Position numbers and translations under genes: made by a program | IMG/VR virus record: IMGVR_UViG_3300044574_000066 | Coordinates: 1-32,413 of that record | Reading direction: 5' to 3' (one strand) | Length of the DNA: 32,413 nt | Origin: a virus | In this document: piece after piece, positions 7,465-32,413 of the stretch | Position numbering within the stretch: position 1 is the stretch's first letter | Layout: each line of letters opens with the position of its first letter | Notes under the pieces: model-generated | The model's input: the letters and a program-made list of their open reading frames with translations, nothing else | Told to the model about the DNA's origin: nothing | The model's database searches: none

Positions 7465-9335
7465 ACCTGTTCTCTATGCAACTGCCCGACGGACGGCACT
7501 TCATCGCCCACCAGAAGATCGAGAACGACCACGACTTGCTCGGCGGCATGAGCAAGGAGGACTTCACCGGCTGGTTCTTCTCCCGCTTCCGCGAGTCCCA
7601 CGCCGCCAAGAAACCCGAGACAGAACGCCTCAAGATGATGGAGCTGTACTACTCGGGGTTCCACTTCCTCGACTCCCAGATGAACCGCGAGATGAAGGTC
7701 ACCAACCTCTGCTTCGCCACCGTCGAAACCGTTCACCCCGTCATGACCGAAATGCGGCCCCGCCCCGAAATCGTCATGCGCCGCCAGTACGCGAAAGACG
7801 AAGCCACCGCCGTTCAGGAATACGCCCAATGGCTCATGGATACCACCGAGTACGACCACTGGTACCACGCCAGCACCCGCCAGAAACTGAAACTCGGATG
7901 GACCGTCACCGTGCTCGTCGTGGAACCGTCCACTGGGCTGTGCTTTCCCAAGGTCTACTCGGCGTTCGACTTCTACAAAGACCCCTACTCACGGCACGAG
8001 GACGAGATGGAGTTCTTCTTCCTCGCCGCCCCCGTACCGACCGCGTGGCTGCGCTCCCAGTACCCCGAGTACGCCAGCGAAATCTTCTCCGACGATATCG
8101 CCAGCCCCGCCTACGACGTGCTCGAACGACCCTACTTCGACGCCTTTTCCTCCGGCGGTGACTACTCCTCTCTCGACAGCATCGTCGCCGGTAGCGCCCA
8201 CCTCGAAAACGAAGCCGACCCCGGCAACGCTCGCGCCCTCGTGTCCGCCGAAGCCGGACAGATGAAGAACACCGGCACCACGTTCCTCATCCAGGGCTTC
8301 TTCCGGGATCGCCGCACCATCGGCGTCCACTACATGGGCGATATCGCCGAGCCAGACCCCTCCGACCCCGCCGGAACCTCGTGGCTGCACACGCCGTCCG
8401 CCAAGGCTTACCGCAGACACGAACCGTGCGCCGAATCCGGGTGGGTGTGCGTTCCCATGACCGCCTCAGGGGCGCTCCTGAAACCGCATGCCGTGGACCC
8501 GTGCTTCCTCGGTATCCCCGTGGAAATCGGCCGGGACTACGCACAGGAAGGCCGCTTCTACTGTCCCGGAGAACTGGACCACATCATCCCCATCAACCGC
8601 AGCATCAACCGGCGGTACAACCTGCTGAACCGCTCGCTGGAGTACGAGGCCGTGCCCATCCTCGTCGCCGACGGAGACACGGGCATCGACATCGACCAGC
8701 GCGCCGTCGAACCCGGCGACGTGCTCAAGAAGGTGCGCGGAACCGACCTGCGCTGGCTCGACTTCAAGGGCGCCGCCTCGTCCCAGTTCGAGATGCTGTC
8801 GCTGGAGAAGGGCGACATGCAGCAAGTGTCCGGCGTGCAGGACGTGTCCCAGGGCCGACGCCCCGAAGGGATCGAGGCCGCCGCCGCCATCCGCAACCTT
8901 CAGGACGCCGCCCAGACCCGTATCCGCGGCAAGGAAGGCCCAGCGTTCATCGAGCAGTCCCGAGTCCTCAAGAAGATGATGGTCGCCACCGGCAAGAAAG
9001 CCAAGGGCCCCATCTTATTCCGTGGCAGCAACGGTCAGACCCTCAGCGTGGACCCCGCATGGCTCACCTACGAGTACGATATCCGCTTCGCACAGGGTTC
9101 CGGCTCCGTACTCGGACGGGCAGCGAACGAGGAAAAGACCCAAGGACTGTTCGCCGCCGGCCTCATCGACCAGCAAACCGCGCTCGAAGGACTCGGCCAG
9201 CGCGGCATCCCCACCATCCTCCAGCGGATGCAGGCCCAGCAGGCCATCGCCGCCCAAGCCGAACAAGCCAGCAAGAGCATGTCTTTCACGCGCGACGCCG
9301 GCGGAAACCTCGCGGGCGCCAGCATGGGGGGCTGA
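7461..9335 (+). CDS. portal protein
   Basis: A 624-residue protein immediately after the terminase block. The portal is the twelve-subunit ring at one capsid vertex through which DNA enters and leaves and to which the terminase and tail dock. Family traits seen: an early helical region with MELYYSGFHFLDSQMNREMKVTNLCFAT written in parts as YYSGFHFLDSQ and KVTNLCFATVETVHP, then PRPEIVMRRQ, and a long helical C-terminal part with QDAAQTRIRGKEGPA, matching the portals of P22-like and related podoviruses in size and layout. The C terminus is Gln/Ala-rich, as in the helical barrel tail of some portals. Start at ATG 7461 by ATGA overlap. Confidence 0.88.
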   Translation: MNLFSMQLPDGRHFIAHQKIENDHDLLGGMSKEDFTGWFFSRFRESHAAKKPETERLKMMELYYSGFHFLDSQMNREMKVTNLCFATVETVHPVMTEMRPRPEIVMRRQYAKDEATAVQEYAQWLMDTTEYDHWYHASTRQKLKLGWTVTVLVVEPSTGLCFPKVYSAFDFYKDPYSRHEDEMEFFFLAAPVPTAWLRSQYPEYASEIFSDDIASPAYDVLERPYFDAFSSGGDYSSLDSIVAGSAHLENEADPGNARALVSAEAGQMKNTGTTFLIQGFFRDRRTIGVHYMGDIAEPDPSDPAGTSWLHTPSAKAYRRHEPCAESGWVCVPMTASGALLKPHAVDPCFLGIPVEIGRDYAQEGRFYCPGELDHIIPINRSINRRYNLLNRSLEYEAVPILVADGDTGIDIDQRAVEPGDVLKKVRGTDLRWLDFKGAASSQFEMLSLEKGDMQQVSGVQDVSQGRRPEGIEAAAAIRNLQDAAQTRIRGKEGPAFIEQSRVLKKMMVATGKKAKGPILFRGSNGQTLSVDPAWLTYEYDIRFAQGSGSVLGRAANEEKTQGLFAAGLIDQQTALEGLGQRGIPTILQRMQAQQAIAAQAEQASKSMSFTRDAGGNLAGASMGG

Positions 9336-11133: not shown

Positions 11134-11850
11134 ATGGCAGACGACAGCATCGACCTGACGAGTCTCGGAGAGTTCACCGGGGACGACGCGCCACTGGAGG
11201 CAGCGCCGACCCCCGAGCCGACGCCCGAGCCGACGCCCGAGCCCGCCGCCGAGACTCCGGCCAAGGTCGAAGCAGCCGACGACGACTACGAGGACTTCAC
11301 GCTTGAGGACTTGGACGCCCACATCAAGGACAACCTCAAGAGCGTGCTGGATGATTTCAGGAACACCGACCCGGACGCCACTGACGACACCGTGCCGCCC
11401 GAGGTCAAGGCGCTTGCCGACGAGAACAAGGCCCTGAAGGACCGCCTTGCCGCCGCCGAGGCCGAGAAGTCGCAGCGCGATGACGAGGCGGGCATCGCTG
11501 CGCTCGAACACGCCATCAACTCGACGATGGGCAAGTACAAGATGACCGCCGCCGAGGCCGCAGAAACGACTGAATGGCTGCTGAACGAGCCAGGATTCGC
11601 CAAGACCAAGACGTGGGAATGGGCCGCCCTGCGAGTCCACCCCCACATCGCCGGTCGCCTCAAGGCAGCTTCTGGTTCCACTCCGTCTGCGCCCGAAGCC
11701 GGGGCCGACGGGCTGGTTGTTGCGCCAAACGCCAATGGATCTGGCGCCCCCTCCGCGTGGAAGCACACGCCGGAGCGTGGCGTCTACTCGGATATCTCGA
11801 AACAAGCTCTCAGGAGCGGGGAGGCGGCTTCCCTCGGGAAGTACACCTGA
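11134..11850 (+). CDS. scaffolding protein (putative)
   Basis: The 238-residue product has the usual scaffold features and location: directly before the major capsid gene, very acidic, with a Pro/Glu repeat near the N terminus (three PTPE units), a central coiled coil (LADENKALKDRLAAAEAEKSQ) and a helical C-terminal domain (GVYSDISKQALRSGEAASL) that would bind capsid protein. Scaffolds guide prohead assembly and leave or are digested before packaging. No protease domain is seen in it or next to it. The start is ATG 11134, three bases after the previous stop. Confidence 0.75.
   Translation: MADDSIDLTSLGEFTGDDAPLEAAPTPEPTPEPTPEPAAETPAKVEAADDDYEDFTLEDLDAHIKDNLKSVLDDFRNTDPDATDDTVPPEVKALADENKALKDRLAAAEAEKSQRDDEAGIAALEHAINSTMGKYKMTAAEAAETTEWLLNEPGFAKTKTWEWAALRVHPHIAGRLKAASGSTPSAPEAGADGLVVAPNANGSGAPSAWKHTPERGVYSDISKQALRSGEAASLGKYT
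11206..11241 (+). repeat. three 12-bp in-frame repeats (PTPE)
   Basis: Three tandem units of CCGACSCCCGAG encode Pro-Thr-Pro-Glu repeats within the scaffold gene. Probably a flexible linker, prone to length change by slippage. Confidence 0.8.
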
Positions 11851-28380: not shown

Positions 28381-28680
28381 ATGCCGGAAGCCCGCAAGAT
28401 TGATCCAGTGGTCGGCCGCAACTCGGCCGGCCAGATTGTGATGGACGTGACGCATTCCGAGAGCCCCGCAATCAGTCTGCGGGTGGTGTTCTGGAACCCC
28501 GAGGACGTGTTGCGGCTCGCGGATGTACTCGCGGAGCACGGCAACGACGACGAGTCGAACGACCGCGCGTACCCGGAACTGCGCGGCTCCGAGGACCGCG
28601 ATGACGCCGTGGCGTCGCTTGTGCGCGACACGCCGAGCGGCGGAAACCTGCTGCACACTCGCGGGGGGGCGCCGCGATGA
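28381..28680 (+). CDS. hypothetical protein (99 aa) before the RecT-like gene
   Basis: ATG 28381 lies 9 bases after AGAGG, directly downstream of the pseudoknot-like element. The first half is beta-like (GQIVMDVTHSES, AISLRVVFWNPEDVLRLADVLAEH), the second is acidic and low in structure. No motif recognised. It overlaps the RecT-like gene as ATGA and is probably its regulator or partner; it is the first target of any control by the folded leader. Confidence 0.65.
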   Translation: MPEARKIDPVVGRNSAGQIVMDVTHSESPAISLRVVFWNPEDVLRLADVLAEHGNDDESNDRAYPELRGSEDRDDAVASLVRDTPSGGNLLHTRGGAPR

Positions 28681-30065
28681 CCACGGCTCTGACGACGCAA
28701 CCCGCGTTCCCGGGCGGGCAAGAGTTGACGGACATGCGGAACGCCGCCGCTCTCATCGCGCAAAGCGCTCTCGTGCCCGAGGCGTTCCGCGGCAAGCCCG
28801 CAGATATCATGGTCGCCATCCTGACCGCTCGCGGCCTCGGCCTCGACCCGATGGTGGCTCTCCAGAAGGGCTATGTGGTCAAAGGCAGGTTCGATGTTGA
28901 GGTGAGCGTCAAACTCGGACTCATCCAGTCGCGCTTGCCGGACTTCGACTACGAGGTGATCGTGTTGGACGATGACCGCTGTGTGGTCGAGGGTGGCCGG
29001 GCGGGGAAGAACAAGGCGCGCTCCGAGTTCACATACCTACAGGCCGTGGCAGCCGGGCTGACCACTGGCAAGTATGGACCGACGCCGACATGGCAGTTCT
29101 ACCGGCGCGATATGCTGCTCAATCGCGCGCTCGGCCGCGTGCTCAAACTGACGTGCGCGGCGGCGCTCTACAACATGCCGGTTATGCTGGACGAGCCGGA
29201 CTTCGCGGACGACAACAACGCCACGACTGTAGCGCCCGTCCGCCCCGCGAGCGGCGCCGAGGTGGTGGAGGACGGCCCGGCGACTCCGGCGCCGACTCCG
29301 CCACCGGCGCAGGTCGTCGAGGCGTCCCAGCCGGTTCCTGTGGACTGGAAGGGCCGCCTGCTTCGCGCAGTCGCAGCCTGCTACAAGCGCACGCCGCCCG
29401 GAACCCACAAGAACTCGTACCAGGCGTGGGCCAAGGCGAACATGGAGCAGATCATGTTCCTTGCGAACGCCTTCTACCAGTCGGTCGGGGAGCCGGAGGT
29501 CAAGGGGTGGATTTCGGTCCCGCCGATGGACTGCGAGCGCATCGCGCTGTGGGTCGAGGCGCGCAACGAGAAGCGGGAGGGAACGGAGGGCTTGCCCTCT
29601 GGCGGCACGGACGCCGCCCCCTCCCAAGCCGTAGAGGACGCGGGCAACACGGATGACGCCCTGGCAGGTGCGCCCGTGGGGGCGAGCATGGCCGCCCCGC
29701 CCGCGTCAGAAGCAGAACCGCTCGTCGAGGATGACGGCGATGACAGGTGGCCCGAGAGCGAGCCGGAGGCCGAACCGGGCTACGTTGCGCTCTCCAAGCG
29801 AGGCCCGGATGTTCTCGTGACGGTGCTGCTCAGGTGCCGCGCCGCGACCAAGAACCTGGTGGCGTATGTGCTCAAGGCGGAGCGGTCTGGGAGGTATCAG
29901 ATCACGCACTCAGAAATCCTCAAATCTATTGGGAGCGTAACCGCAACTGGCACAGCGCAGAGCATGTGGCTGGTGGACGCGGCGAAGAATGACGGGCTCT
30001 GGCTGATGCTGTGCAGGGCGGTTGCGGACGAGGCGACGCGGCTCAAGGTGGATTACCTGAACTAG
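28677..30065 (+). CDS. RecT-like single-strand annealing protein with C-terminal extension
   Basis: The first 190 residues match the RecT family of phage recombinases: LIAQSALVPEAFRGKPADI, then LTARGLGLDPMVALQKGYVVKG, VKLGLIQSRL and a W/F-rich helix with an ML..RALGRVLKL segment. These proteins pair single-stranded DNA with complementary strands in phage recombination. The remaining 270 residues are unusual: a Pro/Ala linker, a helical domain around residues 220-300 (WKGRLLRAVAACYKRT), an acidic Ala/Pro/Glu linker and a final domain (LVTVLLRCRAATKNLVAYVLKA). The function of that extension is unknown. No exonuclease partner is visible in the window. Confidence 0.72.
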   Translation: MTTALTTQPAFPGGQELTDMRNAAALIAQSALVPEAFRGKPADIMVAILTARGLGLDPMVALQKGYVVKGRFDVEVSVKLGLIQSRLPDFDYEVIVLDDDRCVVEGGRAGKNKARSEFTYLQAVAAGLTTGKYGPTPTWQFYRRDMLLNRALGRVLKLTCAAALYNMPVMLDEPDFADDNNATTVAPVRPASGAEVVEDGPATPAPTPPPAQVVEASQPVPVDWKGRLLRAVAACYKRTPPGTHKNSYQAWAKANMEQIMFLANAFYQSVGEPEVKGWISVPPMDCERIALWVEARNEKREGTEGLPSGGTDAAPSQAVEDAGNTDDALAGAPVGASMAAPPASEAEPLVEDDGDDRWPESEPEAEPGYVALSKRGPDVLVTVLLRCRAATKNLVAYVLKAERSGRYQITHSEILKSIGSVTATGTAQSMWLVDAAKNDGLWLMLCRAVADEATRLKVDYLN

Positions 30066-30069
30066 ATAA

Positions 30070-30136
30070 TATCGGACGGGTGTACGCTGGTGGAGGCTGT
30101 ACGCGCTTCGTATAACCGCTGGCGGCCCGCCCGATA
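30070..30136 (+). promoter_or_regulatory. leader stem before the coiled-coil gene
   Basis: TATCGGACGGG (30070-30080) pairs with CCCGCCCGATA (30126-30136), 10 of 11 positions, enclosing TACG/CGTA (30100-30103 with 30109-30112). TGTACGC appears twice inside (30081-30087 and 30098-30104). The fold ends 8 bases before the ribosome site of the next gene. Confidence 0.45.
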
Positions 30137-30155
30137 CCTACACTGGAGGGATGCA

Positions 30156-30899
30156 ATGAGCGGTGGAATGGTGAAGGTGGACCCGGTATCTGAGGCTGTT
30201 TCAGCTATCCTGCTGGGTGAGACGGGTAAGGTGGCCGAGGGTATTCTGGTGAGCGTGAGCACGGGTTGGCGCATTGCCACCGTGGAGGACCGCTCGCAGG
30301 CGAGCGATACGCTCTCGCTGCTGCGCCGCAGCGCCAAGCGCGATGCCGAGGCGCTGACCGAGGCGTTCCGGCCCGTGAAGGCGCGCATGGAGTCACTGGG
30401 GGGTCCTGTGAAGGCGCGTATCGCTCGCTGCGAAGCGGGCGCGGCTACGGTCGAACGCGAGATGCGGCGTTGGGACTCCGACGTTGAGGCAAAGCGGCGC
30501 GAAGCCGCTCGCATCGCTCAGGCCGAAGCGGACGCCGCGGCCAAGGAGGCCGCCGAGCAAGCAGCCTTGCTCGCTGACGACGATGAACCGCTCGCCCCGG
30601 CACAGGTGGTCATCCCGCAGGCCGAGAACATGGTGCGCGGGGCGGTCGGAAAGGACCACAAGACCCGGCGCACTCGGGCCGCCGAGATCGTGGACATCTC
30701 GGCCATCCCGGCCGAGTGGCGGCACCTGGTTGTGCTCGACAAGGCGGCAGCGAAGGCAGAATACGACCTGCTCGTGAAGCGCGGCACGCTCGAAATCCCG
30801 CCCGACTTAGACCCCGATAATCCTCTGGCGGGACAAGGCCGAGTGGTTGGCGGTATCCGGTTCGTTTCCGACGTGTCGTACACCAGTGGGAGGGCGTGA
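30156..30899 (+). CDS. coiled-coil protein next to RecT (247 aa)
   Basis: ATG 30156 follows GGAGGG (30145-30150), so I prefer it to the GTG at 30090. The protein has a helical N-terminal domain (SEAVSAILLGETGKVAEGILV), a long charged coiled coil at about residues 60-150 (RRSAKRDAEALTEAFRPVKAR, then repeated Ala/Glu/Lys stretches) and a C-terminal domain with HLVVLDKAAAKAEYDLLVKRG. Similar proteins beside RecT-type recombinases are often annotated only as domains of unknown function. A partner of the recombinase or a host-nuclease inhibitor is possible, but neither is shown. Confidence 0.65.
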   Translation: MSGGMVKVDPVSEAVSAILLGETGKVAEGILVSVSTGWRIATVEDRSQASDTLSLLRRSAKRDAEALTEAFRPVKARMESLGGPVKARIARCEAGAATVEREMRRWDSDVEAKRREAARIAQAEADAAAKEAAEQAALLADDDEPLAPAQVVIPQAENMVRGAVGKDHKTRRTRAAEIVDISAIPAEWRHLVVLDKAAAKAEYDLLVKRGTLEIPPDLDPDNPLAGQGRVVGGIRFVSDVSYTSGRA

Positions 30900-31555: not shown

Positions 31556-31870
31556 ATGCAGCAGTATCAGGGAGATATCCGGTGCATGGACGTGTCAGCA
31601 ATCCCCGCCGATGCGGTACCCGTGAAGCCGCGCGGTGGTCGCTACATCGTCGCGGAGGGCGAAGCGACCGGCCACCATCACGCCATCGCTGAGCAGTACG
31701 GCGAGCTATTCGAGACGCCGGACGGAACGCTGTGGTTCCGCGCGGGAGAGGCCGAAGCGCCGATGGTCCACGAGGAACACGCCCCCGTGCGGTTCGCGCC
31801 GCGCAGCATTACGCGGATCGACCAACAGTGCCAGGAGTTCGCTGGCGACGTTCAGCGCGTCGTGGACTGA
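31556..31870 (+). CDS. HHH/HEEH-motif hypothetical protein (104 aa)
   Basis: Strong ribosome site (AAGGAGG) before ATG 31556. After a beta-rich start (VPVKPRGGRYIVAEGEATG) the protein has GHHHAIAE and, 30 residues on, MVHEEHAPVRF, two conserved His clusters on a compact beta fold that could bind metal. I recall small proteins with this GHxH...HEEH pattern lying next to DUF6745-like genes in bacterial and phage genomes; the next gene here looks like that family, which supports the pairing. Function unknown. It is followed by a terminator-like stem. Confidence 0.6.
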   Translation: MQQYQGDIRCMDVSAIPADAVPVKPRGGRYIVAEGEATGHHHAIAEQYGELFETPDGTLWFRAGEAEAPMVHEEHAPVRFAPRSITRIDQQCQEFAGDVQRVVD

Positions 31871-31940: not shown

Positions 31941-32413
31941 GTGGCTACGCCGAAGAAGTACGAACTGACGCCGGAGCACGCCGCACAGATGGCCCCGTGG
32001 GCCGAGAGGTGGAAGCGCATCGTCATGTCCACGGACGCGATGACGGAGGCTGACCGGGCGGTGTGCCGCGGGGCGGTCGTGGGCCTGTACGCCGCCGCGA
32101 AACTGCCGCCTCCCAAGCATATCGTGTTCGTGCCCTCCCCGTTCGTGCTGTCGTTCGCGGGCGGGTTCGCCTCCGCCGTCTGGTGGCTGTTCCGCAAGAA
32201 CAAGCCCACCAGCGATGCCACCAGCGATGCCACCCGCGCTGCCACCCTCGCTGCCACCAGCGATGCCACCCGCGATGCCACCTACGCTGCCACCCGCGCT
32301 GCCACCAGCGATGCCACCCGCGCTGCCACCTACGCTGCCACCCTCGATGCCACCCTCGATGCCACCTACGCTGCCACCCGCGCTGCCACCCTCGATGCCA
32401 CCAGCGCTGCCAC
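31941..32413 (+). CDS. DUF6745-like protein with ATx tetrapeptide repeats, partial
   Basis: GTG 31941 lies 6 bases after a full GGAGGTGA site, and the frame runs off the right edge. Residues 1-90 contain WAERWKRIVMSTDAMTEADRA, then GLYAAAKLPPPKHIVFVPSP and a hydrophobic stretch, which resembles the start of DUF6745 proteins (recalled, not searched). After FRKNKPT the product becomes an array of four-residue units (S/R/L/Y)-(D/A)-A-T, 17 visible. The array is in frame with no break. The number of units probably varies between relatives. Function unknown; DUF6745 proteins often lie beside HEEH-type small proteins such as its neighbour. Confidence 0.6.
   Translation, partial: MATPKKYELTPEHAAQMAPWAERWKRIVMSTDAMTEADRAVCRGAVVGLYAAAKLPPPKHIVFVPSPFVLSFAGGFASAVWWLFRKNKPTSDATSDATRAATLAATSDATRDATYAATRAATSDATRAATYAATLDATLDATYAATRAATLDATSAA
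32211..32413 (+). repeat. 12-bp tandem repeat, 17 units, only three variable positions
   Basis: Units of NNC-GMT-GCC-ACC follow each other without spacer from 32211 to the edge (last unit lacks one base). Bases 3, 4 and 6-12 are identical in all units. The first codon is AGC, CGC, CTC or TAC and the second GAT or GCT. The array lies inside the reading frame and is not a CRISPR. Confidence 0.95.

Follow-up and report, generated by a model that had tools for sequence, protein, structure and literature searches.

A fast-changing tetrapeptide array in a family of phage DUF6745-type proteins

The array gene and its neighbourhood

The stretch of DNA analysed here, referred to throughout as the window, is a virus contig of 32413 bases from IMG/VR. 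A terminase, a portal and a major head protein represent the phage head genes, and an endolysin is also encoded. The window terminates within a 12-bp repeat because the contig itself stops inside the array. Upstream of the gene that contains the repeat lie a RecT-like annealing gene, whose end is 1.9 kb away, an exonuclease-like gene and a small gene for a protein of 104 aa, which we call the partner. The features are:

28677..30065, + strand: RecT-like single-strand annealing protein gene (phrog_561, E 4e-13)
30090..30899, + strand: exonuclease-like gene, start codon uncertain (phrog_10477, E 8e-9)
31556..31870, + strand: small partner gene, 104 aa, adjoining the array gene, predicted all-beta (phrog_27831, E 5e-5)
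31941..32413, + strand: array gene, N-terminal domain plus tetrapeptide array, with GTG start and homologues; incomplete at the contig end
31941..32205, + strand: N-terminal domain of ~88 aa with the conserved motif '..IVFVPSPF...FAGGFA..', 43-76% identical to 22 relatives
32206..32413, + strand: 12-bp in-frame repeat of (S/R/L/Y)(D/A)AT units, 17 when counted from 32211, the last cut by the contig end

From its GTG start at 31941 the array gene reads through the 88-aa domain into (x-y-Ala-Thr)n and off the contig. A previous sequence-only reading had described 17 units that vary only at bases 1, 2 and 5, with Ser, Arg, Leu or Tyr followed by Asp or Ala and then a fixed Ala-Thr. The unit alignment of 32211-32413 (16 full units, then a final one of which the contig preserves 11 bases) and the translation in the frame of the gene agree with this description on every point; seven of the eight possible x-y combinations are present, YD being the missing one. 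Tandem Repeats Finder places the repeat at 32206-32413, with a period of 12 and 17.3 copies, and the 12-base self-match fraction is 0.838 in the repeat, whereas 4571 other window positions average 0.312 and do not exceed 0.492. No block repeats were seen in the window's own array. Elsewhere in the window, at 11205-11243, a short 12-base repeat of 3.2 copies (GCCGACGCCCGA) lies within ORF 11134-11850.

The family to which the partner was assigned, phrog_27831, also contains gp175 of the phage Ma-LMM01, and through it the window copy could be recognised, so that the window carries the two-gene cassette. A small partner was found clustered beside the array gene in 29 of 68 loci, many of which are cut by contig ends. 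It sits just upstream of the DUF6745 gene in Ma-LMM01, in prophiGD102-1, and in plasmids of Streptomyces and Deinococcus; in Ma-LMM01 the gene pair is placed among DNA replication genes. The neighbours of the array gene in the window and in Ma-LMM01 are thus recombination or replication genes and not tail genes, and these are not tail-fibre contexts. In the two plasmids the cassette has no array and lies near STM4011-4015-type genes (radical SAM proteins, hydrolase); by eye, apparent leucine-rich-like repeats replace the N-terminal domain in the Deinococcus copy (the two loci are L122 and L123). Structure prediction gives the partner an all-beta fold with a pLDDT of 91. A Foldseek search of the PDB returned nothing for it at E <= 0.001, and the VIA-align comparison, at most Z 3.2, was not informative. 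PADLOC models had no match for four of the five proteins submitted, with a weak partial Cas2 match (15.9 bits) for one partner protein, and NCBIfam gave no match.

Relatives and family layout

Thirty-six viral loci match the N-terminal domain of the window protein, and a profile built from 23 N-domain sequences recovers 59 viral and 8 bacterial loci, the latter including Sphingobium, Sphingomonadales, Hansschlegelia, Novosphingobium, Bdellovibrio and others. A profile of the C-terminal domain gave 147 matches, of which the best 80 were kept; this set overlaps those found with the N-domain. Full-length relatives are arranged in the order N-domain, array, C-domain, and in all four that were tested the C-terminal part scores over the Pfam cut-off for DUF6745 (PF20530); one of the four (L027) is without array. 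The window record itself has no PF20530 match, as the contig ends before the C-terminal domain seen in the relatives. With its homologous N-domain followed by an array, the window protein falls in the subfamily that combines this domain with x-y-A-T units. On the best reading, therefore, a phage DUF6745-type protein has this repeat as its central array, and its gene adjoins that of a small beta-protein. A tblastn search of the phage collection with the N-domain found no match, and a PF20530 search in 299 genomes of one phylum found 3.

DUF6745 proteins such as gp174 of Ma-LMM01, a Microcystis phage, and gp38 of the Mycobacterium prophage prophiGD102-1 have the same C-terminal domain as the relatives of the window protein. 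The former, like the Streptomyces, Deinococcus and Nostoc copies, differs in having no array; the latter, together with one further genome, has an array of x-y-Gln-Leu units. Array size ranges among relatives from a few units up to 95, and in some of them the units read x-y-Q-L or x-y-A-V in place of x-y-A-T. Other array-less members are L071 (on the same contig as L027), L156, L181, L183, L184, L198 and L200. Among the best 80 of the 147 C-terminal loci, 33 lie on contigs that start inside the array and one more starts in the C-domain, while in one contig both ends overlap by 10 bases within the array once they are aligned to a relative. It appears that the array breaks contigs, which accounts for the point at which the window stops.

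Several members depart from the common layout. In Bdellovibrio bacteriovorus kdesi (L106, NZ_CP102930.1) the gene starting at 8001 has the N-domain and one or two units, and its reading frame continues, as judged by eye, into apparent host transporter sequence; with no DUF6745 match in the whole genome, this is probably a truncated prophage remnant. In another locus (L092, array gene from 8001) the array goes on in a different frame after about 26 units (TPHTKPRSTPHTT...) and then stops, so that it is probably a frameshifted, broken copy. The array of Hansschlegelia zhihuaiae (L101) is a long, almost perfect SAAT-DAAT alternation, other arrays being near-random in order; this could be either a recent dimer expansion or an effect of assembly. 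L069 and L153 have compound arrays in which a longer block recurs (GAATYHETVDAI...), giving higher-order units, and L037 and L089 have x-y-Ala-Val units with a very small vocabulary (RG, DD, DG, GD).

Literature on DUF6745 or on a hypervariable phage tetrapeptide array was not found by title, in a search for which subscription papers and preprints were mostly outside the scope; PMC7159879 and PMC10907252 deal with conflict systems of bacteria and with the targets of retroelements. The phage DUF6745 array protein is widespread but unstudied.

Variation within and between arrays

Diversity at each base of the unit was calculated for 50 arrays, each with 8 or more A-T units, and then for 40 held-out arrays. 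L076 and L088 (duplicates) and L089 (A-V units) were left out of the analyses of DNA diversity, residues by third base, flanks and class shares; the analysis of neighbours and order additionally left out L068, L077, L101 and L106, and near-identical partners and contigs already used were left out of the held-out and class-share sets. The mean diversities over the 50 arrays are 0.645, 0.509, 0.097, 0.129, 0.395 and 0.049 for bases 1 to 6, and 0, 0, 0.030, 0, 0 and 0.054 for bases 7 to 12, where the zeros (bases 7, 8, 10 and 11) are due to the filter, as only units reading A-T were counted. Bases 9 and 12, the third bases of the Ala and Thr codons, are 4-fold degenerate. These sites are less diverse than bases 1, 2 and 5 in 50 of 50 arrays, and both are invariant within the array in 37; in the held-out set the corresponding figures are 40 and 32 of 40. 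The consensus base at the two sites varies between arrays (between-array diversity of 0.58 and 0.61). Two x-y-Q-L arrays, that of prophiGD102-1 among them, show a similar pattern, with variation mainly at bases 1 and 5. Random synonymous change, which the sequence-only reading had named as evidence against itself, was looked for across the arrays and not found.

The residues at x were grouped into classes in 69 arrays (2274 units). Their shares are close to one quarter each: 0.26 basic, 0.27 acidic, 0.25 aromatic and 0.23 other. For the first three classes dispersion is 2.2-2.5, as compared with 4-8 for most single residues at x (7-8 for residues such as E, W and S) and 7-27 for the residues at y; the class of other residues, which accounts for 0-62% of the units of an array, has a dispersion of 6.0. 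R, D and Y are used in arrays whose third base is C, and R, E and W in those where it is G: D and E replace each other at x, as do Y, W and H, while the class shares stay near-equal. Basic and acidic residues exceed the random expectation in both groups of arrays; aromatic residues are clearly above it in the G group (0.25 versus 0.07) and stand at 0.23 versus 0.19 in the C group. All three classes are present in 42 of the 45 arrays with a dominant third base and in 36 of the 40 held-out arrays, a class being missing from a few. That different codons reach the same residue classes points to selection on the protein. Overall, a rule holds across the family: within an array the silent sites are uniform and x and y are diverse, and between arrays the chemistry is kept and the order is not.

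Pairs of closely related phages indicate how fast this happens. L136 and L137 match throughout 3400 upstream bases and have 1 mismatch in 1500 downstream bases, and their arrays differ by +24 and -81 bases (L142, which groups with them, shows 25 mismatches over 673 bases downstream). Between L131 and L132 there are 0 mismatches in 6000 downstream bases, and 84 bases plus a few mismatches separate the arrays; between L145 and L146 there are 2 mismatches in 6000 bases, and the arrays differ by 207 and 12 bases, with 8 mismatches in 216 aligned positions. The opposite behaviour is also observed: in L075 and L076, which come from two metagenome records and have 2 mismatches in 9302 bases, all 95 units are unchanged, and unit order is kept between L190 and L191. 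At greater distance order disappears before vocabulary. L188 and L190, whose C-domains are 97.5% identical, have an order similarity of 0.22, versus 0.26 for shuffles, and 62% of their DNA unit types are common to both arrays; for L139 and L140 (C-domain 92.1% identical) the common fraction is 15%, and among the pairs listed at 80-88% C-domain identity 11 of 12 have no unit types in common. The array is the fastest-changing stretch among those compared in these phages. The suggestion of ongoing exchange of units, made from the window alone, is thus upheld: 0-2 flank differences in 6 kb stand against 84-207 array bases, and the order of units no longer exceeds shuffles in a pair whose adjoining domains are still 97.5% identical. 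A search for distant relatives with the same order, which would have spoken against exchange, found none. In-frame changes of copy number by gain or loss of whole units, of the kind that marks variable-number tandem repeats (VNTR), were seen between near-identical phages among the relatives.

The units appear to be copied whole: of 40 arrays, 18 contain recurrent multi-unit blocks in excess of shuffles (p <= 0.02) and 21 show linkage of x with y inside the unit (p <= 0.01). Over the arrays there is no excess of identical direct neighbours, which speaks against simple slippage by one unit. The proposal of a shuffling of a few unit types therefore stands in part: it is supported by this linkage and these blocks, but the array of the window is without block repeats, and vocabularies differ between relatives, so that new unit types must keep arising. 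Homologous recombination from unit to unit would account for the changes most simply. The RecT-like protein of the window is a possible local agent; as a general agent RecT is no more than a candidate, phrog_561, the annealing family searched for, being found in only 6 of 45 records.

We also considered the array as the target of a diversity-generating retroelement. None of the 42 virus records, one of them a 36.7-kb record with both ends overlapping in the array, has a reverse transcriptase (PF00078), and on this ground a retroelement acting in cis was rejected. One of four bacterial genomes has PF00078, on a contig other than that of the array; 3 of 14 control genomes are positive.

Interpretation of the array

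AlphaFold draws the array as a helix with pLDDT of about 38-62, the end domains being confidently predicted, so that the regular solenoid or helix of the sequence-only reading is conjectural; its binding surface is conjectural too. Foldseek found nothing in the PDB for the array protein at E <= 0.001, VIA-align reached at most Z 5.2 and was not informative, and at the same E-value a library of viral structures returned two matches, the Ma-LMM01 DUF6745 protein and an uncharacterised phage fragment. Unit order gave no clear lag signal that could serve as a guide to the fold. A signal of charge pairing between neighbouring units (z of -3.5 in the first set) fell to -0.3 in the held-out arrays and was dropped, and a charge signal at lag 3 (-2.6 in the held-out arrays versus -1.0 in the first set) is unreliable; as the neighbour signal was not replicated, there is no ordering rule that would indicate a specific ladder or fold.

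The reading that we prefer, with a probability of about 0.5, is that of a multivalent scaffold under selection for composition. Homologous recombination between copies would duplicate, delete and re-insert units, leaving the silent sites uniform, and selection at the level of the protein would keep x and y mixed, with variation surviving only where the chemistry of exposed residues changes. The array may then be a long scaffold that holds the two end domains apart, with composition mattering more than order and with putative binding by arginine, acidic and aromatic contacts to a protein, to nucleic acid or to another copy of the array. Several considerations temper this reading: the share of other residues varies widely between arrays and a few arrays lack one of the classes; since array-less members exist, the array is not essential to the end domains; many arrays probably derive from short-read assemblies, where collapse can imitate the deletion of units; and targeted mutation at three bases would also account for the contrast with the silent sites.

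The main rival, tentative in our judgement, is that the x-y pairs are contact modules directed against a changing target, be it host defence, a competing phage or a host factor, and that positive selection for new combinations drives both x-y substitution and the shuffling of units. The loss of order between close relatives, the confinement of variation to residue-changing bases, the repeated multi-unit blocks (which would represent combinatorial growth) and the position of the gene by recombination or replication genes rather than tail genes all agree with such an arms race. Classes held near one quarter each, however, fit a rule of composition better than an escape to novelty, PADLOC produced no meaningful match, and two near-identical phages have 95 units unchanged. 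A related idea, rather doubtful as it stands, is a combinatorial recognition polymer, in which each 4-aa unit would be one of a few contact types, in up to about 95 modules; recombination would rebuild the array continually with no retroelement involved, selection would favour new or balanced combinations, and the polymer might act in counter-defence or as a device of recognition between phages.

The remaining alternatives place the cause in the DNA or in the data. A process that mutates bases 1, 2 and 5 directly would explain why these vary in nearly all arrays while the other bases are uniform, and it would fit the lack of excess identity between neighbours, for which single-unit slippage alone is not suited. 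Diversity-generating retroelements direct mutation to adenines. Their targets resemble the array in being hypervariable at set codon positions of one gene; they differ in that the array has no reverse transcriptase, its whole units are copied and deleted, and its variation goes beyond adenine positions, all four bases occurring by inspection at unit base 1, which speaks against an adenine-specific change. Given, in addition, the linkage of x and y, which indicates copying of whole units, and a choice of residues far from random NNC or NNG, we regard targeted mutation as unlikely. An unconstrained spacer, whose length is driven by slippage and whose x and y are free to vary, would agree with the wide range of lengths and with the members that lack an array, but neutrality predicts silent sites at least as variable as the others, and the opposite is found in all 90 arrays, with strongly non-random residues; this we hold to be quite improbable. 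Finally, lengths and orders could have been created by short-read collapse: the 33 contigs among the best 80 of 147 that begin inside the array are what one would expect where assemblers fail, and some differences are pure deletions of units. Such an artefact is very improbable as the general cause, because related phages differ in vocabulary and third bases and not just in number, the same arrays are present in bacterial genome records, and the identical 95 units were recovered from two metagenome records.

The scaffold reading can also be placed beside known repeat proteins. As in VNTR proteins, the number and order of units change in frame between near-identical genomes; unlike them, the array has a 4-aa unit with two variable residues, near-uniform silent sites and balanced residue classes. 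TAL effector repeats are nearly identical units of 33-35 aa with two adjacent variable residues, and their order differs between relatives; the unit of the array is of 4 aa, no homology is expected and there is no evidence of a base code.

The array breaks many assemblies, and the two-gene cassette to which it belongs is common to phages and bacteria. With uniform silent sites and two diverse residues per unit in the absence of a reverse transcriptase, it provides a natural test, and it lets one ask whether selection sees the composition of such a repeat or its order.
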